A DNA stretch of 37,409 nt, from the NCBI GenBank assembly GCA_031292145.1, contig JARLHR010000120.1, forward strand, positions 1 to 37,409, read 5' to 3'. The notes under the pieces are model-generated. The model did not search any database. It was not told the DNA's origin and saw only the letters and a list, made by a program, of their open reading frames with translations. Shown here one piece after another: positions 70 to 30,263 of this stretch (within the stretch, counting starts at the first letter, position 1; every line of letters starts with the position of its first letter). The stretch is from Clostridium sp. Its GTDB lineage: Bacteria; Bacillota; Clostridia; Clostridiales; Clostridiaceae. The position numbers were made by a program, and so were the translations under genes.

Positions 70-136
70 TTGTATCACCCTTTATGTCTTTTTCTTAATT
101 ATCGGATGATACGTAAAACTATTTAGGGATAAGCTC
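1..136 (-). mobile_element. IS5-type insertion sequence, left part only (rest beyond window)
   Basis: The element starts (minus strand) at GAGCTTATCCC, position 136, directly after TTA (137-139). IS5 elements of the IS427/IS1031 groups commonly start with GAG and target TNA, so TTA fits as target. Its first bases supply the new stop codon of the truncated protease gene. The transposase start lies at 69, so the element reads away from the protease. The far end and any target duplication are outside the window. Confidence 0.7.
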
Positions 137-3100
137 TAAGTTTTGATGCTAACTGGAATAAATATCTCACACCTAAAAATACTGCATTATTTTTATATGA
201 AATTTGATTTCCATAAAGTGCATAACCTTTTCTAAAAGCCTCATTACCTGGTCTAAGCTTTACAACTGCTAGGCTACACTTTGGAGCTACTCCTATAAGT
301 TCTGGATTAACACCTTTTGCTGATATTATTCCTGCTATTTTCGTTCCGTGTCCTATTTCATCCTTTGATGGCACAACAACATAGGGATCTTCACCATTTC
401 TCTTAGCTTGTATTGCCTTATCTATCTCCTCTTTTGTATATATTGTCCCAACTACGTTATCAAGAGGTATAGTATCTCCTTCAATATTTTGATCGTAAAT
501 TTCTAAAATTCTAGAAGTTCCATCACTATTTATAAACTCTTCATTTAAATAATCTATCCCAGTATCAACTATGCCTACAAGTACACCTGAGCCATCTAGT
601 GATAAATATTGGCTATTATGAAATAGGATTGCCTCTGATGCTATTACAGGTGATATATCACACAGTGTAAGAGCTGCTCCTGGATCTGCAGAAATTATTT
701 CTTTAGTTGTCTTTAATACATTATTACTTATTTCATATGGTACTGATATAAGAGCACGTTTTTGATCTATTATATATGCATCTGAATCTGGAAACTTCTT
801 TATTGCACTAATTATATCTCCCTTATATTCAACCATAGTATTTACGTTATTATCTTTTAAAAAAGTGTTTATTTTTTTATCTGCCAATATTTCTCTATTC
901 TTCTCTTTTTTAATCCCTCTTATATTATCAAAAGTTCCCTTTAAATTTATCATTCCATAACCCCACTGTGGGTTAGGATATACATCCTCTGGCCTTTTAT
1001 TAGCACCTCTCATTAGATAAGTTTTTAATTCTATAGCAAACATTGGACTATCGTTTCCATCAACAATTCCCCACTGAAATATTAGTGCACATACACCGGC
1101 CGTCACTGCACCTGCTACACTTGAACCACTAACAGTTTTAATTCCCCCCCCTACAGAAGTTGTAATAGCATTAATTCCACCTGCTGCAATATCTGGTTTG
1201 ATCATATTATCCCTCGTATATCCCTTACCTGACTCAGGTACAACAGAGTTATTATTTTGATTATAATATGCTACAGTTATTGCTCCCTTTGAGGTTCCTG
1301 GAGTGGTTAGGGTGGTATTAACAGTAGGACTTAGAAATTTTGTATCTTGTGCTAAAAGCTCTCTCTGTAATAACCACACATCATATTTTCCAACTATGAT
1401 TAGCTCACCTATAAGTTTAAATTGCCAAATACCTTCTCTAATATTTCTAGCAGTTATAAGTATTCTTTCCTCTCCTGATTGTTCATCAGGTATAGAATAT
1501 TCTATTTTCATTTTAGTTTCTTCATATATAAAAGTAATATCCGTCACTGATTTAAGCTTTGGAGGTATTTTCTTAATAATCTCACCTGTAGGAGAGGTTA
1601 TTGATATTGATACCTTATCTGGCTTGGAAATCCATATTTCAATACGTATATCTTGTTGATTTTTTCCTATCTCAATTTCTACAATACCCTGATCTCCTTT
1701 ATTTTTTATTATTCCAGAAGTATGAGTATCTGTATTTCCTTGATTTCCAGTAGGCACAACAACAGCTACACCATTATAGTTAGAAATTTCAGTTATATAT
1801 TTTTCAATATATGAATTTCCATTGTGAGATCCAACATTAGTACCTAATGGAACATATATTATAATAGGCATCTTTAACTCAAGTGATAAATTATATAAAT
1901 ATGTTATTCCAAGCAATACTTCTGTACTTTGATATGCTGCTTCACTCCCAAAGATTGTAAAATCACTTCTAAAAGTGTTAAATCCAGGTTTAATCTTTAC
2001 TATGGCTAAATTGCACCTAGGTGCTGCACCAATTATTCCATGTGTAGCACCTCTTGCTGCTATTATTCCAGCCATTTCTGTTCCGTGACCTATTTCATCC
2101 TTGGATGGTACAATGGCATAGGGATCTTGTCCATTTTTCTTAGCTTGTATTGCCTTATTTATATCCTCTTGTGTATATACAGCACATTTAAGACTTGTAT
2201 TAGCCGGAATACTTCTATCCATAATTGCTAAAATTCTAGTAGTTCCATCCTCGCTTATAAACTCTTCATTTAAATAATCTATTCCTGTATCAACTATACC
2301 TACAATTACACCTGACCCATTAAGCGGCAAATAAACATTATTATGAAATATAGTAGCTCCTGATGTTTCTACTGGTGAAATATCGCAAGTTGTATACGGT
2401 GCGCCTAAATCTACATAGATTATTTCAGGCGTTGATTTTACCATATCCTCATAAATTTCATAAGGGGTTGTAATTAATGCACGTTTTTCGTCTATTATAA
2501 ATACATCGGTATTAGGAAACCTGCTTACAGCTTTAACTATATCATCTTCGTATTCAATAAAAAAAATCTTATTTTTTTTATCAAAAAAATAATTTGGAGG
2601 CTCTGTTACTTCTCTGTTTTTTTGCTTTTTTAATCCTCTAATATTATCAAAAACCCCCTTCATATTAATAATTCCATAACCCCACTGTGGATTAGGATAC
2701 TCATCACCTTCCCTTTTTGATGTTCCTCTTATTAAATATGTCTTAAGTTTTATTGAGTACATGGCTCTATCCTTGCCCTGAACAATTCCCCACTGAAATA
2801 TAAGTGCACAACATCCTGCAACTACTGAAGCTGCCACACTGGAACCACTGATAACTTTGCTACCATCATTCTCAAAAGTTGTTAATGCATTAACTCCACC
2901 AGCTGCTATATCTGGCTTTACTCTATCGTCCCTTGTATATCCTCTACCTGAATCTACTTCAATGGCATTATTGGTTTGATTATAATAACCAACAGATATG
3001 GCATATCTTGATGTTGATGGAATGGTTAATGTTATATCTGGATTGGGACTCAAAAACTTTGTATTTGGTGCAATTATTGCCTTCTGTGGTAAATAAACAT

Positions 3101-4376
3101 CATATTTACCCACTGTCACTACTTCTCCTATAAGTTTAAACTCCCATATACCTTCTGCTATATTTATAGCTGTAATGTTAATTTTTTCATCACCGCTTAT
3201 TTCTTCTGGTTTAAGGTACTGAATAAACATTTTAGTTTTTTCATATATAAAATTAATTTCTGTTATTTTTTTATTTATAGGCGCTATTCTATCAACTATT
3301 TCCCCAGAAGGAGATGTAACTGATAGTACTAATTTATCTGGTTTAGAAATCCACATTTCAAATTTTAGTTTTTTTTGTTTCTCATCTACAGCAAGATCAA
3401 TATTAGCAACATCCCCCTCCTTAGCTATTACTCCTGATGTATGAGTATCTGCATCTCCTTCATTACCAGTTGGTACAACAACAGCTACTCCTCTAGTTCT
3501 TGAGACTTCATCTATATATCTTTCATTAAGATTCAAACCATTATGAGCTCCCATACTGCTGCCCAGTGGTATCAATATTACAATAGGTTTTTTTAGATTA
3601 ATAGAAAGCTCATATAGATATTTTATTCCAAAAAATATTGCAATACTTGAATAGATAGGTGCATTTCCATATACACAACTTTCCTCTTTCAATCTTTTAC
3701 TTGCAGAAACTAGCTTTACAATAGCTAAATCACATTTTGGTGCTGCTCCCACAAGTACATCTCTTGCACCTCTACCACCAGCAATTCCTGCCATATTTGT
3801 ACCATGACCTATTTCATCTTTTGAAGGTACTATGGTATATGGATCTTTCCCCTCTTTCTTGGCTTTAATAGCATTATTTATATCCTCTGTGGTATACTCA
3901 CTCCCTAAAGGCTGACCACTAGGTCTTTTTCCTGTATTAATACTTTGATCCATAATAGCTAAAATTCTTGATGTACCATCTGCATTTATAAATTCCTCAT
4001 TTAAATAATCCATTCCAGTATCAATTATTCCTACTATAACTCCTGATCCATCTAATGGTAAGTACTCATTGTTATGAAACTGATCTGCTCCCGATGCTTC
4101 CACTGGTGAAACAGCACACAATGTATATATGACTTCAGGATTTCTATAATTAATCACATCAGATAATTTATTGACTATATCATCTATATCTGTATCCTTA
4201 ATAGATAGTAATGCATGGGTTTCATCTATTACAAACACCTTGACGTTTGCAAGTTTACTTACAGCACTAACAATATCTCCACTGTAGTCTACTATTGTAT
4301 AAATTACATTTTCTCCTGTCAAAATATCATCTGAAATCTGCCTATGATCTTTTTTTAGAATCTTACTCTTTTTTAT
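123..4376 (-). CDS. Triple-module Csp-like subtilisin protease, third module truncated by IS insertion
   Basis: Family S8 serine protease built from three tandem modules. Numbered from TTG at 4322 (1399 residues), module 1 has D101, H173 (GHGT), oxyanion N287 and S495 (GSSVA). Module 2 has D678, H746, N860 and S1068. Module 3 has D1253 and H1325, then stops at 1399 before its Asn and Ser. Both complete modules carry the Asp/His/Ser triad, an insert of about 170 residues between Asn and Ser as in Csp germination proteases, and a prodomain-like start (YSGDIVSAV, YEDDIVKAV, YKGDIISAI). The last residues RAYP and the stop come from the IS5 end, so the original protein was longer. No signal peptide is seen. 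The start is placed at ATA 4376 after AAAGGGGGG, because TTG 4322 has no ribosome binding site and no canonical start lies between it and the upstream stop at 4398. A role in spore germination is inferred from the family. Confidence 0.8.
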   Translation of the reverse strand: MKKSKILKKDHRQISDDILTGENVIYTIVDYSGDIVSAVSKLANVKVFVIDETHALLSIKDTDIDDIVNKLSDVINYRNPEVIYTLCAVSPVEASGADQFHNNEYLPLDGSGVIVGIIDTGMDYLNEEFINADGTSRILAIMDQSINTGKRPSGQPLGSEYTTEDINNAIKAKKEGKDPYTIVPSKDEIGHGTNMAGIAGGRGARDVLVGAAPKCDLAIVKLVSASKRLKEESCVYGNAPIYSSIAIFFGIKYLYELSINLKKPIVILIPLGSSMGAHNGLNLNERYIDEVSRTRGVAVVVPTGNEGDADTHTSGVIAKEGDVANIDLAVDEKQKKLKFEMWISKPDKLVLSVTSPSGEIVDRIAPINKKITEINFIYEKTKMFIQYLKPEEISGDEKINITAINIAEGIWEFKLIGEVVTVGKYDVYLPQKAIIAPNTKFLSPNPDITLTIPSTSRYAISVGYYNQTNNAIEVDSGRGYTRDDRVKPDIAAGGVNALTTFENDGSKVISGSSVAASVVAGCCALIFQWGIVQGKDRAMYSIKLKTYLIRGTSKREGDEYPNPQWGYGIINMKGVFDNIRGLKKQKNREVTEPPNYFFDKKNKIFFIEYEDDIVKAVSRFPNTDVFIIDEKRALITTPYEIYEDMVKSTPEIIYVDLGAPYTTCDISPVETSGATIFHNNVYLPLNGSGVIVGIVDTGIDYLNEEFISEDGTTRILAIMDRSIPANTSLKCAVYTQEDINKAIQAKKNGQDPYAIVPSKDEIGHGTEMAGIIAARGATHGIIGAAPRCNLAIVKIKPGFNTFRSDFTIFGSEAAYQSTEVLLGITYLYNLSLELKMPIIIYVPLGTNVGSHNGNSYIEKYITEISNYNGVAVVVPTGNQGNTDTHTSGIIKNKGDQGIVEIEIGKNQQDIRIEIWISKPDKVSISITSPTGEIIKKIPPKLKSVTDITFIYEETKMKIEYSIPDEQSGEERILITARNIREGIWQFKLIGELIIVGKYDVWLLQRELLAQDTKFLSPTVNTTLTTPGTSKGAITVAYYNQNNNSVVPESGKGYTRDNMIKPDIAAGGINAITTSVGGGIKTVSGSSVAGAVTAGVCALIFQWGIVDGNDSPMFAIELKTYLMRGANKRPEDVYPNPQWGYGMINLKGTFDNIRGIKKEKNREILADKKINTFLKDNNVNTMVEYKGDIISAIKKFPDSDAYIIDQKRALISVPYEISNNVLKTTKEIISADPGAALTLCDISPVIASEAILFHNSQYLSLDGSGVLVGIVDTGIDYLNEEFINSDGTSRILEIYDQNIEGDTIPLDNVVGTIYTKEEIDKAIQAKRNGEDPYVVVPSKDEIGHGTKIAGIISAKGVNPELIGVAPKCSLAVVKLRPGNEAFRKGYALYGNQISYKNNAVFLGVRYLFQLASKLRAYP

Positions 4377-4391
4377 ACTAATCCCCCCTTT
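4374..4391 (-). promoter_or_regulatory. Ribosome binding site with non-canonical ATT/ATA start
   Basis: Minus strand reads AAAGGGGGG-ATTAGT-ATA. The purine tract is an excellent Shine-Dalgarno sequence, but the codons at normal distance are ATT and ATA. The frame is open from a stop at 4398-4400 and its first ATG/GTG/TTG is TTG 4322, more than 50 bases on. ATA has the better spacing. Confidence 0.6.
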
Positions 4392-4493
4392 AATTATCTA
4401 TGCACTAATATAGACATTAAGAATGTAGAATTAATGGAGAATTTCCATAAAAATTTGATTAATTATTTTCATTTTTCAATTTTTAATTAAATA

Positions 4494-6302
4494 TTATTTA
4501 GGCAGTCTTATAAATAAATTATCTACATAATACTCATTTTCATCTATTGTTTTTTTTTCTATATTATTTTTAGATCTATTTTTAACTCTAACATTGGCTA
4601 ATTTTAATAAATTCAATGAATCATAAGCACATACAAGACCATATCCCCAGCTAGAATCTGGATAAGACACATCTATCCTATCTTTTTTTGCACCTTTTGA
4701 AAGATAATACTTAAGCCTATCTCCATAAAGAAATGGATCATTACCCTTAGCTATTCCCCACTGTAAAAGTAATGCACATATTCCTGTCACATGAGGCGCA
4801 GCCATTGAAGTTCCACTTTTAGTATCAAACCCATTATCTGATACTGTAGATAATATTCCTTCTCCAGGTGCTACTATATCTGGCTTTGTAAATGAAGTTC
4901 CATACAATTTTCCTCTACCTGAAAAAGATGAAAAAGTATTTGTCCCATTGTTATAACTTCCTACTGATATTGCACCCTCAACTGTAGCTGGAATTCCTAA
5001 AGTGTTATATACATCAGGCTTAAGAAACCTTGTTTTTGGATTAAGAACTTCTGTAATAGGAAGCCAAATATCATATACTCCCCTATACTTATTAAGAACT
5101 TTTAAGGTTAATTTCCATTCACCACTTGGTAAAGATTCTGAACCTGACAAAATACTTATTGATATTTCTCCATTTATGTCAAAGGGCTTAGGTCCTGTGT
5201 TGTAAATAATACATTTATCAATTCCTATATTAACTTCTCTATATCCATCACCCATGACTATTTCTCCACTTTTTTCACCTAACGGGTTCTCTACCTCAAC
5301 AGAAATATCAACCAAGAGTGGCTTATATAATTGTAAAGTTATAGTCCGTTCAGACTCTGATACACTAAACGGAATGACATTCACATCACTTAATTGCCCC
5401 CCTGCATGGTGAGCCGCATCTCCTTCATTCCCTGCTGCAATAACTATTGCTACTCTTTCAAGTTTGCATATAGTTTCTATATATTGTTCTAAAAGACTTG
5501 TACCGTTATGTGCTCCATCATTAGTACTTAAACTAATATTTATAGTAAGTGGTTTGTTACTTTCATTTGCCTTATCCACAAGAAACTTTATTCCTCTCAT
5601 AATCTGAGTACTTAACGCAAAATTCAAAAAACCATATCTAGTGATTTTCACCATAGCAATTGAACTTTTGAAAGCTATACCATAATTTTGCTTTGGTATT
5701 TTACCTCCTGCACAAGCTATTCCCGCCACATGAGTTCCATGATTTATGGGATCTTTTACATTTACAATAGCATATGGATCTTGTGCTTTTAATGCTTCAT
5801 TTATTTGAACCCTATCATAAACTTTAATATTTTCACCTAAATCATAAATAAAATCAATTCTAGTATTTCCATCTTCATCTCTAAAAGCAGGATGAGTATA
5901 ATCTATACCAGTATCAATAAATCCAACTAGTACACCTTCTCCAGTTAATCCATATCTATCCCAAGCATTTGGAACACAACAAGCCTTATTGCTTTCAAAA
6001 TCAGAAGTAAATAAAACCTTAGGTAACTCCACATATTGCACTCCTTCTATCTGTGATACTTTACGTACATCCTCAGACTTTAAGGTAACAATACCAAAAC
6101 CATAACCTAAATTTTCAAATGTTCCACCTATTTGTTGTACAGACTTAGTTACTTTATCCAAATTATTCCCAAACAAAACCACTATTTCTATATTTCCTTT
6201 ATTAATTTGTTCATTTTGTGATAGAGAAGCTACTTTGTATAATAACTGTTCTGGTATTTTATTTAATAAGTTTACTTTAGAGTCAAACTTGTTACTTTCT
6301 AT
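4494..6302 (-). CDS. Csp-like subtilisin serine protease (canonical type)
   Basis: Family S8 protease and the most orthodox of the three paralogues. Numbered from GTG 6182 (562 residues), it has D90 (GFIDTGIDY), H148 (NHGTHVAG), oxyanion N252 (AAGNEGD) and S459 (SGTSMAAPHVTG), so it is predicted active. A roughly 170-residue insert between Asn and Ser matches the jellyroll insert of clostridial CspB-type proteases. GTG 6182 would cut the first prodomain strand (NIEIVVLFGNN); the frame is open for 40 more codons and matches the next paralogue (INIESNK versus INIEGNK). The start is therefore placed at ATA 6302 behind GGGGGGAG. The C-terminus, KKTIDENEYYVDNLFIRLP, is shared with the neighbour. 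CATACCATA at 6409-6417 resembles a SigE/SigK -10 box, but no convincing -35 was found. Function in pro-SleC processing is inferred from the family. Confidence 0.85.
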   Translation of the reverse strand: MESNKFDSKVNLLNKIPEQLLYKVASLSQNEQINKGNIEIVVLFGNNLDKVTKSVQQIGGTFENLGYGFGIVTLKSEDVRKVSQIEGVQYVELPKVLFTSDFESNKACCVPNAWDRYGLTGEGVLVGFIDTGIDYTHPAFRDEDGNTRIDFIYDLGENIKVYDRVQINEALKAQDPYAIVNVKDPINHGTHVAGIACAGGKIPKQNYGIAFKSSIAMVKITRYGFLNFALSTQIMRGIKFLVDKANESNKPLTINISLSTNDGAHNGTSLLEQYIETICKLERVAIVIAAGNEGDAAHHAGGQLSDVNVIPFSVSESERTITLQLYKPLLVDISVEVENPLGEKSGEIVMGDGYREVNIGIDKCIIYNTGPKPFDINGEISISILSGSESLPSGEWKLTLKVLNKYRGVYDIWLPITEVLNPKTRFLKPDVYNTLGIPATVEGAISVGSYNNGTNTFSSFSGRGKLYGTSFTKPDIVAPGEGILSTVSDNGFDTKSGTSMAAPHVTGICALLLQWGIAKGNDPFLYGDRLKYYLSKGAKKDRIDVSYPDSSWGYGLVCAYDSLNLLKLANVRVKNRSKNNIEKKTIDENEYYVDNLFIRLPK

Positions 6303-6316
6303 ATTAATCTCCCCCC
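6300..6316 (-). promoter_or_regulatory. Ribosome binding site with non-canonical ATT/ATA start
   Basis: Minus strand reads GGGGGGAG-ATTAAT-ATA-GAA. The frame is open back to a TAG at 6327-6329 and holds no ATG, GTG or TTG until GTG 6182. The arrangement is the same as for the two neighbouring paralogues. Confidence 0.6.
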
Positions 6317-6547
6317 AAAAATATAGCTATATGCCTATTTTTTGCTTCTAATTTTGGAAATACTCATTTTATAAGACTTTAGAAGCAGTATTATATTTCC
6401 TGTTATTTTATGGTATGTATCAACCATGCTGGTTTCCGAGCTGTAAGCGAAAAGCAAGTATATAATAGATTATTCAAATATACCTTAATAAAAACCATAT
6501 AAAATCCACATTTTTTTAAAATTTTAATCTTAACTTTTAAGAAACTA

Positions 6548-8461
6548 TTATATAGGTAGTCTTATAAATAAATTATCCACATAATACTCATTTTCATCTA
6601 TTGTTTTTTTATTAACTATATCATTAATAGATCTAAATTCGTTAAATTTTAATCTCATGTTATCAAACACTCCCTTCATATTAACCATACCATATCCCCA
6701 CTCTGGATTAGGATATATGTCACCTTCCCGCTTCGATGTGCCTGCTATAAAATAGGTTTTAACTTTTGTGGAATATAAATCTTTGTCATTTCCGTTGATA
6801 ATTCCCCACTGAAATATAAGTGCTGTGCATCCTGCTACTACAGCTGCTGCTACACTAGATCCACTGATAACTATCGGTCTAGAACCTACAGTAGATACTA
6901 AAGTACTTACTCCACCTGCTACTATCTCTGGTTTAATTCTACCATCTCTGGTATATCCTCTCCCTGATTCTGCTACATTTGAATTATTATTTTGATTATA
7001 ATAGCCAACTGATATGGCATATGATGATGTTGATGGAATAGTTAGTGTTTTATATGGATCTGGAGTTAAAAAATTTGTACCAGGAGCTAATAGTTCTCTT
7101 TGAAGTAAATATGCATCATAATTCCCTGTTACAACTAATTCTCCTATAAGTTGAAATGTCCAAATTCCCTCCCTTATATTTCTACAATTAATTGTAATTC
7201 TTTCCTCACCAGTTAATACTTCCGGCATGGCGTATTCTACATATATTATAGTACTTTCATATAAAAATTTAATTTCTGTTATTTTATTAAGACCAGGTGG
7301 TATTCTACTAAATATTTCTCCAGAAGGTGAAACAATTGATAATGCAAATTTATCTGGTTTAGAAATCCATATTTCAAAATTTATATTTTTTTGATTTTTA
7401 TCTATCTTAACCTGAATACTCTGAATATCGCCTTTTTTATCTATCTTTCCAGAAGTATGGTTATCTGCATTTCCTTGATTTCCAGTTGGTACAACTACAG
7501 TTATTCCTTTCACTATTGAAATCTTATCTATATATCTCTCAATAATGGATAATCCATCATGAGCACCTCTAACCCCACTTAAAGGTAAAAGTATTACAAT
7601 AGGTTTTTTTAACTTATAAGCTAAATCATATAAATACTTAATTCCTAAAAATAAAACTGAAGTTGAAAAAGTAGGTGCATTACCGTACATACCTAATGTC
7701 TCACGTAACATTTCAGGACTTGGACCTAATCTTACAACAGCAAAATCGCACCTTGGTGCTACTCCTATAACTGCTGGATTTACACCTTTGGCTCCCACAA
7801 CTGACGCCATGTTTGTACCATGACCATTTTCATCTTTTGAAGGTACTATTGCATAAGGATCCTGTCCTTCTTTCTTTGCCTTAAGAGCCGAATTTATTTG
7901 TTCCCTAGTATACTCACTACCTACGAATTGACCTTCTGGTTTTTTTCCAGTGGTTATAAGTTGATCCCAAATAGCTATAATTCTTGAAGTGTTATCCTCA
8001 TTAATAAACTCTTCATTTAAATAATCTATACCAGTATCAACTATGCCTACAATAACCCCTGACCCGTCCAGTGGCAAGTAAGTACTATTATGAAAGTTAG
8101 TTGCTCCAGATGCTTCTACAGGTGAAACATCACACAATGTATACAGTGAACTAGGATCAACATACACAATTACATCAAAAAGTTTATCAACTACTTCCTG
8201 CACATTTCCTCTTACTGCCAATATTGCATGATTTTTATCAACAATACCAACACGAGCATTTGGAATTTCTTTCACCACACTAGCAATATCACCCTTATAT
8301 TCTATGATAGTATATACAGTGTCTAATAACGCAAAAAATTTTTCATCTGGCATATTTGCTATATTTTCTTCTACTCTACTGCCACATCTAACAATATCTC
8401 GTATCTGTCCTTGTGCTTTATTTAATATTTTAAATTTATGCTCAGACTTATTACCTTCTAT
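6548..8461 (-). CDS. Csp-like subtilisin serine protease, single module
   Basis: Family S8 protease. Numbered from ATG 8353 (601 residues), it has D106 (GIVDTGIDY), H178 (NGHGTNMAS), oxyanion N292 (PTGNQGN) and S500 (SGSSVAAAV). The triad is complete, although the Ser motif is GSSVA instead of GTSMA. The body closely resembles the fusion protein modules (SPVEASGA, YTRDGRIKP, NPEWGYGM), whereas the last 19 residues before the end match the other single-module paralogue. ATG 8353 has no clear ribosome binding site and lies 36 codons inside an open frame whose beginning, INIEGNKSEHK, matches INIESNKFDSK of the neighbour. The start is therefore placed at ATA 8461 behind AAGGGAGAG. It is the first gene of the array; about 230 bases separate it from the next ribosome binding site. 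A sporulation or germination role is inferred from the family. Confidence 0.82.
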   Translation of the reverse strand: MEGNKSEHKFKILNKAQGQIRDIVRCGSRVEENIANMPDEKFFALLDTVYTIIEYKGDIASVVKEIPNARVGIVDKNHAILAVRGNVQEVVDKLFDVIVYVDPSSLYTLCDVSPVEASGATNFHNSTYLPLDGSGVIVGIVDTGIDYLNEEFINEDNTSRIIAIWDQLITTGKKPEGQFVGSEYTREQINSALKAKKEGQDPYAIVPSKDENGHGTNMASVVGAKGVNPAVIGVAPRCDFAVVRLGPSPEMLRETLGMYGNAPTFSTSVLFLGIKYLYDLAYKLKKPIVILLPLSGVRGAHDGLSIIERYIDKISIVKGITVVVPTGNQGNADNHTSGKIDKKGDIQSIQVKIDKNQKNINFEIWISKPDKFALSIVSPSGEIFSRIPPGLNKITEIKFLYESTIIYVEYAMPEVLTGEERITINCRNIREGIWTFQLIGELVVTGNYDAYLLQRELLAPGTNFLTPDPYKTLTIPSTSSYAISVGYYNQNNNSNVAESGRGYTRDGRIKPEIVAGGVSTLVSTVGSRPIVISGSSVAAAVVAGCTALIFQWGIINGNDKDLYSTKVKTYFIAGTSKREGDIYPNPEWGYGMVNMKGVFDNMRLKFNEFRSINDIVNKKTIDENEYYVDNLFIRLPI

Positions 8462-8476
8462 GTTAATCTCTCCCTT
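8459..8476 (-). promoter_or_regulatory. Ribosome binding site with non-canonical ATT/ATA start
   Basis: Minus strand reads AAGGGAGAG-ATTAAC-ATA-GAA. The frame is open back to a TAA at 8486-8488 with no canonical start codon until ATG 8353. This is the third example of the same layout in this array. Confidence 0.6.
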
Positions 8477-15796: not shown

Positions 15797-16906
15797 CTAA
15801 GAACCGTACGTGAGAGTTTCCAGCTCATACGGCTCAAGCATTTCTTCACCCTTTCGAGCGGCAACAAGTATATGCAGTTTTATCTTTCTTTTATCAAAAT
15901 AGTCCTTGTCTAAGAAAGGTGTTTTTGTAATCTGCAATTTTGGATGTCTGACGATTTTAATCCGTCTTAAATTAATTAGACTGTACCCATCCGTTTTGAA
16001 AAGCCATCTTTTCAAATTTTTTTCATGCCAGTATTTATTTAACCTCCACCATTTGTTCTTGTTGGGATGTCTATGTTTTGCCCATTGCTGTAGTAAGTGA
16101 TAAAGGATGTTATTAATATATGAAAAGGCTTTGCTAGCAACCACGTGTTTGTGATAATTTGTCCAACCTCTTATGACTTGATTAAGCCTTCTTATTAAGT
16201 CAGATTGAGTACTAGATTTTCCCTCTTTAAGGATTATTGTGGAGCATCTCCTAATTATGTTTTTAATAGAACTTTTAGAAGGTTTCACTATTAATTTCCC
16301 ATTGTATTTCTTAAATGTCCAGCCAAGAAAGTCAAATCCTTTATCGATATGCGTAATCACAGTCTTTTCTTCTGATAGTGTGAGTCCTCTTGATTGAAGG
16401 AATTGACTAACAGTAGTTTTAAGTTCTTCCGCAACTTCTTTTGAGTTTGCAGTGATAACGAAGTCATCAGCATACCGAATCAGATTCACTTTAGTTTTGG
16501 CTCTGTAGTGATTTTCTATTTTACCTTTTGAATTTCTATGGTATTTATCTTGAATCACTTTTTGGAGTCCATCTAATGTCATATTTGCATATATACTAGA
16601 GATTGCACCGCCTTGTGGCGAGCCTGTTTCTGTTGGAAACATCTTTTCTTCATATATATATCCTGATTTTAGAAACTGCTTCATAATACTTTTATCCATT
16701 GGTATATTGTTTTGTAGCCATTCATGGTTAATGTTATCAAAGCAACCTTTAATATCACCTTCAAGTATCCATGTCGGAGAGCACTTTCTAGCTAATACAC
16801 AAAATATCTGCTCACAGGCATCTTTTGCACTTCTTCCACGACGGAATCCAAAGGAAATGGAATCACCTTTTGTTTCTGCGATTGGCTCAAGCGCTAACGC
16901 ATAGAT
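15797..16906 (-). pseudogene. Group II intron reverse transcriptase/maturase, N-terminus missing
   Basis: The frame is open from about 16906 to the stop at 15797. It begins within the RT domain (ALALEPIAETKGDSISFGFR), then GDIKGCFDNI with a catalytic aspartate, SPQGG, YADD with the other two catalytic residues, GFDFLGW and the maturase X domain (LNQVIRGWTNYH). Roughly the first 100 residues of the usual protein are gone, together with its start; ATG 16699 is internal. No HNH endonuclease domain is visible. The last 12 codons, EPYELETLTYGS, are read from domain V itself. It cannot drive mobility with half of the intron missing. Confidence 0.8.
15801..15835 (-). ncRNA. Group II intron domain V
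   Basis: The minus strand starts with GAGCCGTATGAGC, has a GAAA loop region and ends with CACGTACGGTTC, forming the typical 34-35 base hairpin. The AGC catalytic triad position reads AGC/GCC-like as GAGCCGT at the 5' side. It overlaps the end of the reverse transcriptase reading frame. Confidence 0.8.
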
Positions 16907-16910
16907 CTAA

Positions 16911-17366
16911 TTATTTTGTATTTTTCTCCTGATTTGATTTTGAACGTGGCATCACCTGTCTTTCTATTCTTTGCAGTTCCCGCAAAAATGAATTTTCTTG
17001 TTTTAGATACTCATTTTGTTGCTTTAGTTGTATTAATTTTTCCTCTGTACTAATTTCACTTTTGGAAACTTTAGTTCTACCAGAGTTTCCTTTTCGTATA
17101 TCTCTAACGCCTTCGGGACGATTTGCTTTTGAACGCCACCTCACACTACAACGATCAATACGATTTTGACCTATCATTTCAGGATCAAATCCGTTTTCTA
17201 TAAAGATATATCTTGGAAGCTTTCCTGCATTATGTTCAGCAATAAATAACTCTTTAAACCAATCTTGATATGTACTCTGCTTTGAAGAAATCTTTTTAAC
17301 ATTTTTATTTTGAGCTAAAATACTTATTTCTGCGTCTGTAAAATCACGATTCCTTGATTTTCCCAT
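16911..17366 (-). CDS. IS3-family orfA (helix-turn-helix protein)
   Basis: 151 residues. The N-terminal part is basic and resembles the HTH of IS3-family OrfA proteins (FTDAEISILAQNKNVKKISS). The C-terminal coiled coil has leucines at heptad spacing (EEKLIQLKQQNEYLKQENSF, then LRELQRIER). AGGAGGTG precedes the ATG. In intact elements OrfA is joined to OrfB by frameshifting; here orfB is destroyed, so OrfA alone could at most act as a DNA-binding inhibitor. Confidence 0.75.
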   Translation of the reverse strand: MGKSRNRDFTDAEISILAQNKNVKKISSKQSTYQDWFKELFIAEHNAGKLPRYIFIENGFDPEMIGQNRIDRCSVRWRSKANRPEGVRDIRKGNSGRTKVSKSEISTEEKLIQLKQQNEYLKQENSFLRELQRIERQVMPRSKSNQEKNTK

Positions 17367-25327: not shown

Positions 25328-25629
25328 TTTCGATGCATAAGTTATTATTATCATAGATTTGTATACTTATTATTTTAAGCAATTTATATTCCAATATTGG
25401 CCTTACATTCTAATTTTTTTAAAAGCGCTAAACTTTATGGATTTATCACCTTCTTGTGGAGAATACATATATTTAAATTAAGTCAAAATAAAAAAAAGTG
25501 TGTAATTATAAAATTACACAGTATAAAATCCTTTACACAGTTATACTATTTTCAATTATCATATGCATTATATGTGTAATTTCTACTTTTCCAAATAAGC
25601 GAACAATTAACATATATAAATTCTATTTT

Positions 25630-26220
25630 AAAGGTATAGTTTGTTCATTTGGCCATACCAGTGCTGCTTATGAGGAAGCAATTGAGGCTATTGAATGTGG
25701 CGCTTCTCATGCAACTCATCTCTTTAATGCAATGACACCTTTAACTCACAGAAATCCTGGCGTAATTGGTGCTATATTTGATAGTAATATAACAACTGAA
25801 ACTATATCTGATGGAGTTCATATTTCATATCCTGTCTTAAGAATTACATATAAGCAAAAAGGTAGTGATAATACTTTATTAATTTCTGATTCTATGATGG
25901 CTTGCTGTATGCCTAATGGTGATTATTCGTTAGGCGGACAAAGCGTTACAGTAAATGATGGTGAAGCTCGACTTAAAAATGGTGCTCTAGCTGGCTCTAT
26001 TCTTACTCTTGATAAAGCCGTTAGAAATGTATATAAAAATTCTAATTTACCACTTTATGAAATAATAAAAATGGCATCTTATAATGGAGCTAAACATTGT
26101 AAAGTTCATAATCGTAAAGGACAAATCAAAGAAGGCTATGATGCCGATTTAATATTATTTGATGATGATATAAATATAAAGAAAGTATTTGTATTAGGCA
26201 GAGAAATATACTCAGAATAA
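25630..26220 (+). pseudogene. nagA copy 2, 5'-truncated
   Basis: From 25630 the frame equals residues 183-378 of the intact NagA with very high identity in both DNA and protein, keeping H191, H209, H212, H246 and D269 equivalents. The first 182 residues, including H55, H57 and E125, are missing and the sequence upstream is unrelated. The frame extends back to 25498, but that part is not NagA-like and no ribosome binding site was found. It is not expected to be functional. Confidence 0.85.
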
Positions 26221-29126: not shown

Positions 29127-30263
29127 ATGCTAATAAAAAACTGTAATATTATTTATCTAGATAAAATAGAAAAAGGTTCAATACTTATAGAAAATGGGAA
29201 GATTAGAGAAATAAATCCTACTAAATACTGTGATGAAAATATATTAGATGCAAACGGATTATATATTTCACCTGGTTTTATTGATATTCATATTCATGGT
29301 GCCGGTGGTTATGATACAATGGATGGTACCAGTCAAGCAATTAATACCATTGCTTGAATAATAGTTAGACATGGTACTACTTCCTTTACTCCAACTACTA
29401 TGACTGTTTCTATAGACGATATTAGAAAATCCTTAAACATTATAAAAAATTTAAAAGAAAATGGTTCTGAAGGAGCACATGTTTTAGGCGCTCATTTAGA
29501 AGGTCCTTTTGTAAGCCCAAAAGCAATTGGTGCACAAAACCCTAAATTCATTTTATCTCCATCTATTTCAGCATATAAAGATATAGTCAAAGATTATGAA
29601 GATACTATTATTTCTATTACACTAGCACCAGAAGTTGATGGCGCTAAAGAACTTATCAAGTATGTATCCAATACTGGAGTTACCTGTTCATTAGGTCATA
29701 CAAATGCAACTTATGAAGAAATGATTGAAGCTATTAATTGTGGCGCAAGTCACTCAACACACCTTTATAATACAATGACACCCTTAACTCATAGAAATCC
29801 AGGAGCTGTTGGCTCTATTTTTGACAGTAACATAACTACTGAAACAATTTCTGACGGAATTCATATTACATATCCAGCTTTAAGAATTGCATATAAGCAA
29901 AAAGGAACTGATACTGTTTTATTAATATCCGATGCTATGATGGCCTGCTGTATGCCAAATGGTGAATATTCCTTAGGCGGGCAAAAAGTTATAGTAAATA
30001 ATGATGAAGCACGCTTAGAAAATGGTGCTTTGGCAGGCTCTGTGCTTACCCTTGATAAAGCAGTTAGAAATGTATATAAAAATTCAAACTTACCATTACA
30101 TGAAATTGTAAAAATGGCTTCATTTAATGGAGCAAAACATTGTAAAGTTGATGATCATAAGGGACAAATCAAGGAAGGCTATGATGCTGATTTAATATTA
30201 TTTGATGATGATATTAATATAAAGAAAGTCTTTATATTAGGAAAAGAAATTTATTCTAAATAG
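29127..30263 (+). pseudogene. nagA copy 3, one nonsense codon
   Basis: Full-length NagA homologue of 378 codons, the same length as the intact gene and starting with the same MLIKNCNIIYLDKIE. All metal and catalytic residues are present (DIHIHGAGG, HLEGPF, LGHTNA, STHLYNTM, DGIHITYP, LISDAMMA). Codon 77, Lys in the intact copy, is TGA (29355-29357); reading resumes in phase. The IS607-type relic ends just upstream and no proper ribosome binding site or promoter precedes the ATG. It is more divergent from copy 1 than copy 2 is. Confidence 0.85.

Follow-up and report, generated by a model that had tools for sequence, protein, structure and literature searches.

The window analysed here is a stretch of 37,409 nucleotides of contig JARLHR010000120.1 from Clostridium sp. 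(assembly GCA_031292145.1, genome G000 in our set). It carries three adjacent subtilase genes, g1, g2 and g3, on the minus strand, each with a Peptidase_S8 domain above the Pfam cut-off. None of them has an in-frame ATG, GTG or TTG near its Shine-Dalgarno (SD) box; instead, a G-rich SD box is followed by ATT-ARY-ATA in all three, just as the original prediction had described. The genes and their candidate start regions are listed below in window coordinates.

123..4376, minus strand: g1, tandem subtilase, read from the ATA at 4374-4376
4374..4376, minus strand: proposed AUA start of g1; ATA is also found in the G022 and G025 relatives
4383..4388, minus strand: SD box of g1, GGGGGG, followed by ATTAGT and ATA
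4494..6302, minus strand: g2, CspB-type germination protease of 602 amino acids, read from the ATA at 6300-6302, with the PF18425 prodomain and Peptidase_S8
6180..6182, minus strand: first canonical in-frame codon of g2, GTG, within the prodomain, 40 codons inside; rejected as a start
6300..6302, minus strand: proposed AUA start of g2, from SD score, reading frame and relatives
6309..6316, minus strand: SD box of g2, GGGGGGAG, followed by ATTAAT and ATA
6548..8461, minus strand: g3, Csp-like single-domain subtilase of 637 amino acids, read from the ATA at 8459-8461
8459..8461, minus strand: proposed AUA start of g3, from SD score and reading frame
8468..8476, minus strand: SD box of g3, AAGGGAGAG, followed by ATTAAC and ATA

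Csp germination proteases such as CspB activate pro-SleC in germinating spores, which is one criterion of the family. The CspB prodomain profile PF18425 matches g2 with 71.2 bits (cut-off 25) and matches neither g1 nor g3; thus only g2 is assigned to CspB. The best relative of g2 with a solved structure is the protease CspB (4I0W). The g1 gene encodes two full catalytic (subtilase) domains and a third one that is cut off, and it extends on its 3' side as far as the contig end. The third domain ends at a stop codon near the contig end, and the G022 relative is an open frame of 1780 amino acids with three matched domains.

The preceding in-frame stop lies 7-8 codons before the ATA, and no in-frame ATG, GTG or TTG is present in this interval in g1, g2 or g3. 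The first canonical codon is TTG 4322 in g1, 18 codons inside, and ATG 8353 in g3, 36 codons inside. Canonical codons occurring in the 60 bases before the ATA could not be placed as starts: an ATG and a GTG in g1 and a TTG in g2 are out of frame, so that their use would require a frameshift, and an in-frame TTG and ATG in g3 are separated from the ATA by stops. SD energies were calculated with a simple stacking scorer written for this analysis. At the ATA they equal -12.5, -11.7 and -10.6 for g1, g2 and g3, respectively, and at the ATT two codons earlier they are -4.4, -4.3 and -5.3.

In the frame of g2, PF18425 is matched over its full length (1-89 of 89), beginning three residues past the ATA, and the match to the 96-residue prodomain of 4I0W covers its positions 3-96. 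If translation began at GTG 6182, about 40 residues of the prodomain, which has about 100, would therefore be lost. It had been claimed from the letters that the frame before the canonical codons is coding and that the GTG of g2 would cost the protein the beginning of its prodomain, and both claims hold for g2. An open reading frame (ORF) finder with translation table 11 does yield TTG 4322, GTG 6182 and ATG 8353 as starts, but translation from these codons, with the preceding stretch as an untranslated leader, has a negligible probability, as the strong SD boxes sit at the ATA codons and the upstream frame of g2 is conserved and coding (for g1 and g3 the argument consists of the SD box and the close relatives).

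The nearest species with g2 are G022, G025 and G090 (84-88% identity), and the alignment of g2 with its closest relatives sets in at the ATA codon. The ATA is retained in all seven genes read in these species (three in G022, three in G025 and one in G090), which together with the window gives ten genes of ten. The codon two positions before it is ATT in eight of the ten genes, GTT in one and ACT in one, both exceptions being in G025. Since the ATA stays while the ATT position varies, the conserved codon is ATA.

This bears on the original prediction, which had left the choice between AUA and AUU open and had suggested looking for ATT-ARY-ATA upstream of orthologous genes: the choice can be narrowed to AUA. 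Initiation at AUU, as in infC, is highly improbable. ATT does occupy the position two codons before the ATA in all three window genes, and it is also the infC start in 19 of 20 loci. However, in the window genes it lies too close to the SD box, as the energies given above indicate, two G025 genes have GTT and ACT in its place and nevertheless keep the ATA, and the corresponding column is not start-like in Peptostreptococcaceae. Thus the comparison of sequences identifies AUA rather than AUU as the predicted start codon with high confidence.

The crystallised protein provides an anchor for the position of the start. Locus L227 shares 94% identity with the 4I0W prodomain across 94 residues, and its start region reads ATG-GAG-AAT-AAG downstream of an SD box. 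The solved chain of 4I0W has Asn-Lys at positions 3-4, which fits the ATG of L227 as residue 1. The start region of g2 is ATA-GAA-AGT-AAC-AAG. As the L227 ATG falls at the matching place, the ATA of g2 is the counterpart of the start of the crystallised CspB type, with the difference that the 4I0W-like gene uses ATG where g2 has ATA. The proteins of the csp genes considered here belong to one family with C. perfringens CspB (4I0W) and C. difficile CspBA (PMC3567191). In the available parts of PMC3567191 the word "codon" does not occur, and neither these nor the available parts of PMC6464247 give anything on the start codon of csp genes.

A wider test of the same column is offered by Peptostreptococcaceae. 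Of 71 genomes, 53 contain cspB with an E value of 1e-150 or better, and all 61 unique copies were read; two of these are identical in sequence to the named loci L109 of Terrisporobacter sp. and L111 of Paraclostridium ghonii. The copies were aligned without gaps, with the conserved N-terminal Glu as the anchor. A single column then contains a start or near-cognate codon in 61 copies out of 61: ATA in 42, GTG in seven, TTG in six, ATG in four and ATC in two. The columns beside it hold many different codons. Internal isoleucine codons of these genes are ATA (2312), ATT (864, or 26%) and ATC (96), and ATT occurs in the start column in none of the 44 near-cognate copies. Thus the column behaves as a start codon and not as an internal isoleucine.

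In twelve of the 44 near-cognate copies the frame is free of ATG, GTG and TTG back to the stop. In six (L316, L317, L324, L331, L347, L348) an in-frame TAA is situated immediately 5' of the ATA. When a codon was picked by SD spacing, irrespective of its identity, ATA was obtained in 37 of 61 copies at spacings 16-18 and 17-19, and in 19 of 61 at 15-17. An ATG at another position in orthologues had been named as a contrary sign; in Peptostreptococcaceae, where the N-terminus can be aligned gaplessly, copies with ATG, GTG or TTG carry this codon in the ATA column, and the ATG of L227 matches as well. Conservation in three copies had also been advanced against a sequencing error, and indeed an error is a very unlikely cause of the missing canonical start, as the pattern recurs in many genomes.

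A further possibility is that the real start is a GTG three codons upstream (GAG GTG NNN NNN ATA), that the ATA is an internal isoleucine codon, and that the window genes have lost the GTG. Such a GTG is present in 33 ATA or ATC copies of Peptostreptococcaceae, 27 of them without a stop in between, as well as in many Clostridiaceae copies, and automatic annotation would probably choose it. Nevertheless, this reading is very improbable. The GTG has no SD box of its own: its mean energy over the 33 copies is -2.9, compared to -16.9 for ATA or ATC, and it scores better in none of the 33. The GTG is itself the core of the GAGGTG or GAGGTGAT SD box, and it is kept even where the ATA column holds a canonical start (L305, L306, L310, L330). 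In six genes the TAA cuts it off from the coding frame, and in the window genes it is absent. In genus g233 all eight copies read GAG-GTG-ATT-ATA-ATA-AAT-TAT-GAA, and on this ground the GTG is probably not the start of cspB there either.

The interpretation that we favour is that g1, g2 and g3 are translated from an inefficient AUA start set by the SD box, which would keep the protease scarce, and that this feature is conserved across cspB of Clostridiaceae and Peptostreptococcaceae. Judging by sequence comparison, we assign it a probability of about 0.88. Several observations weigh against it. The absence of ATT from the Peptostreptococcaceae start column has p = 1.4e-6, a value computed without regard to the relatedness of the copies. 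A canonical codon occurs upstream in frame in 32 of the 44 near-cognate copies, and because of it these 32 copies alone are insufficient to prove AUA. A stronger SD box in ATA copies than in copies with canonical starts was not found in Peptostreptococcaceae: the mean energies are -16.2 for ATA, -15.1 for ATG, -16.8 for TTG and -17.3 for GTG, and thus compensation of AUA by the SD box is unsupported.

The remaining contrary points come from Clostridiaceae, where cspB was found at E 1e-100 or better in 114 of 194 genomes; the places in G111 and G195 were left out of the reading, and another five loci, in which the match set in too far inside the gene, were skipped. The variability of the N-terminus precludes one gapless column here. 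The SD-based call, which is not blind since it considers start and near-cognate codons only, gave a mixed result for 124 unique copies: ATA 47, ATT 24, ACG 11, GTG 10, ATG 10, TTG 7, ATC 4, CTG 1, with 10 ambiguous. The blind pick by SD spacing was very noisy, since it also hit internal G-rich sites; over three spacing ranges it gave ATA in 13, 45 and 51 copies of 127.

Still, the candidate starts of Clostridiaceae cspB behave in the same way as those of Peptostreptococcaceae, less cleanly. Often an ATT call is one half of an ATT-ATA pair on a single SD box. In L037 there is a stop between the SD box and the ATA, and no canonical codon nearby downstream; L032 and L039 are similar, but the ATT just 5' of the ATA is an equal candidate. 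In ten named CspB-like loci (L076-L085), the codons of which were assigned by reading and which partly overlap other genomes (L085 and L266 have the same start region), ATA fits four, namely two Clostridium sp., C. saudiense and C. uliginosum; ACG fits C. tepidiprofundi, ATG C. polynesiense, TTG C. rectalis and C. punense, and GTG Caproiciproducens sp., and the start codon of C. chromiireducens is ambiguous.

The column 13 codons before the anchor, considered in 54 copies outside the genus of the window, contains ACG in nine copies, ATG and TTG in five each, GTG in four, ATA in two and assorted codons in the rest, as not all genera align there. The nine apparent ACG starts belong to five genera (L225, L228, L229, L254, L257, L260, L263, L266, L271). 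Their SD scores range from -10.8 to -15.3, and six of the nine have no in-frame canonical codon upstream. Three further candidates were not counted: L024 and L217 are ACG-ATA pairs, and L191 has an ATA with a stronger SD box two codons earlier. To our knowledge, natural and conserved ACG initiation is rare in bacteria, and a literature search found no case of it. If translated, these genes would provide a rare example. The predicted cspB start codon moves among AUA, AUC, ACG, UUG, GUG and, occasionally, AUG across the two families, and the candidate weak AUA start is kept for a long time in relatives.

The proposed mechanism is as follows. The SD helix at the usual spacing would place the ribosome on the AUA, and initiation would proceed with formylmethionine. 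As AUA pairs poorly with the initiator tRNA, with a mismatch in the third position, and is disfavoured by the proofreading of initiation factor 3 (IF3), initiation is expected to be inefficient. At other genes the third-position mismatch and IF3 proofreading lower initiation, and infC is autoregulated via IF3, according to PMC13009471. The same source reports that in poor medium three non-canonical leaders of S. aureus reached about 10% of the level seen with AUG, the figure that also holds for AUA reporters, and that the ccpN leader gave up to 30% in rich medium. If the efficiency at csp genes resembles that at these other genes, the germination protease would be scarce relative to other spore proteins. 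The purpose may lie in a low protease dose per spore or in a constant ratio to partners, for instance CspC. The analogy with infC, drawn in the original prediction, makes AUA a plausible brake on the level of the Csp protease.

An alternative accepts the AUA start and denies the brake: the codon would drift in a nearly neutral manner, tolerated due to the strong SD box, and the proteins need not be scarce. This is unlikely, although it deserves more weight than the other alternatives. When CspB proteins trimmed of their first 20 aligned residues were placed on a tree, a quick method gave a minimum of 11 codon changes in the start column of Peptostreptococcaceae, among weak as well as canonical codons and five of them between near-cognate and canonical ones. 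Such changes would suit drift, and SD strength does not clearly differ between AUA and canonical copies. On the other hand, few copies (4 of 61) have ATG in this column, whereas it prevails in the next ORF after cspBA, assigned to the cspC position by its location. This ORF was readable in 13 of 14 regions and starts with ATG in nine, with GTG in two and with TTG in one. The contrast suggests a preference for weak starts at cspB. The thirteenth, L405 from G655 (GGAGGTGAATGGAAAATTAGAATA), is the sole one without a canonical codon at the SD box and has only ATT and ATA near it. Eleven of the 13 genomes have cspB with ATA or ATC, and in ten of the 11 the next ORF is canonical; thus the weak start is tied to cspB and not to the operon as a whole.

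Near-cognate starts of this kind have precedents. The infC loci, one per sampled genome (20 of 22 matches, the printed sequences being read by eye), start with ATT as stated above, or, in 1 of 20, with ATA, after a GGAGGTG-type SD box. In this box and in similar spacing infC resembles cspB; the difference is that infC uses mostly ATT, whereas cspB uses mostly ATA. We know of no csp analogue of infC autoregulation through IF3. In nine of 11 Clostridiaceae infC loci (L349, L350, L352, L353, L358, L365-L368), an in-frame GTG lies inside the SD box, which creates the same trap for annotation as in cspB.

The ccpN (AUA) and cvfC1 (AUU) genes of S. aureus, like the csp genes, combine a conserved non-canonical start with a strong (extended) SD box, but they are different genes from a different lineage, and their starts are backed by Ribo-Ret and reporters, whereas those of csp are predicted here from comparison of sequences (PMC13009471). 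In the main text of that paper there is no match for "clostridi" or "germination". For pcnB of E. coli, a reference title in PMC13009471 indicates translation limited by a weak start, as is proposed for csp; its start is AUU and its function is unrelated. No near-cognate start in csp genes was found in the titles and abstract openings of the open-access papers that the searches returned. The kind of start is already known (infC, ccpN, pcnB); what appears to be new is its occurrence in the csp gene family, its depth, which spans two families, and its ACG members.

If the AUA reading is right, a very weak start codon sets the output of a central germination gene, and annotations that take the GTG of the SD box misplace the cspB or cspBA start by a few codons. 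The genes would also form a large natural series for studying why weak starts persist, with ATA, ATC, TTG, GTG and ATG in one column and ACG in other genera. It is tempting to go further and to suppose that the near-cognate starts, AUA as well as the ACG conserved in five Clostridiaceae genera, tie CspB output to IF3 or to the fidelity of initiation in the developing spore, thereby setting the CspB copy number, its ratio to CspC and the germination threshold; this extension is speculative and rather improbable.

Among the other ORFs of the window, 21 of 25 were checked for starts, the four left out being overlapping ones. Except for the maturase fragment described below, wherever one of the 21 has a near-cognate site to match those of the csp genes in strength, a canonical site is at least as good. 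A near-cognate codon outscores a poor canonical site in ORF 25498-26220 (-3.5 and -2.1, respectively) and in ORF 29400-30263 (-6.3 and -1.0). A canonical candidate is absent from the first 60 codons in one ORF of the 21, 15797-16699. It was rejected as a further AUU-start gene, being a truncated group II intron maturase: region 15797-16966 encodes a group II intron reverse transcriptase/maturase without its 5' part and adjoins a transposon-related helix-turn-helix gene (16911-17366).

Paralogues from the same genome have ATG at the expected place, both in four single-gene subtilases (L007, L008, L009, L011) and in two CspBA-type copies, L002 and L003; L010 and L012 are cut by contig ends, and their start regions fall outside the readable sequence. 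Thus G000 contains two extra copies of CspBA with ATG. Its infC (L358), compared by eye, is closer to that of the large-genome species G028 and G059 than to that of G022, although g2 is nearest to G022, G025 and G090. The assembly (6.3 Mb, contamination 4.63) may be a mix of two organisms.

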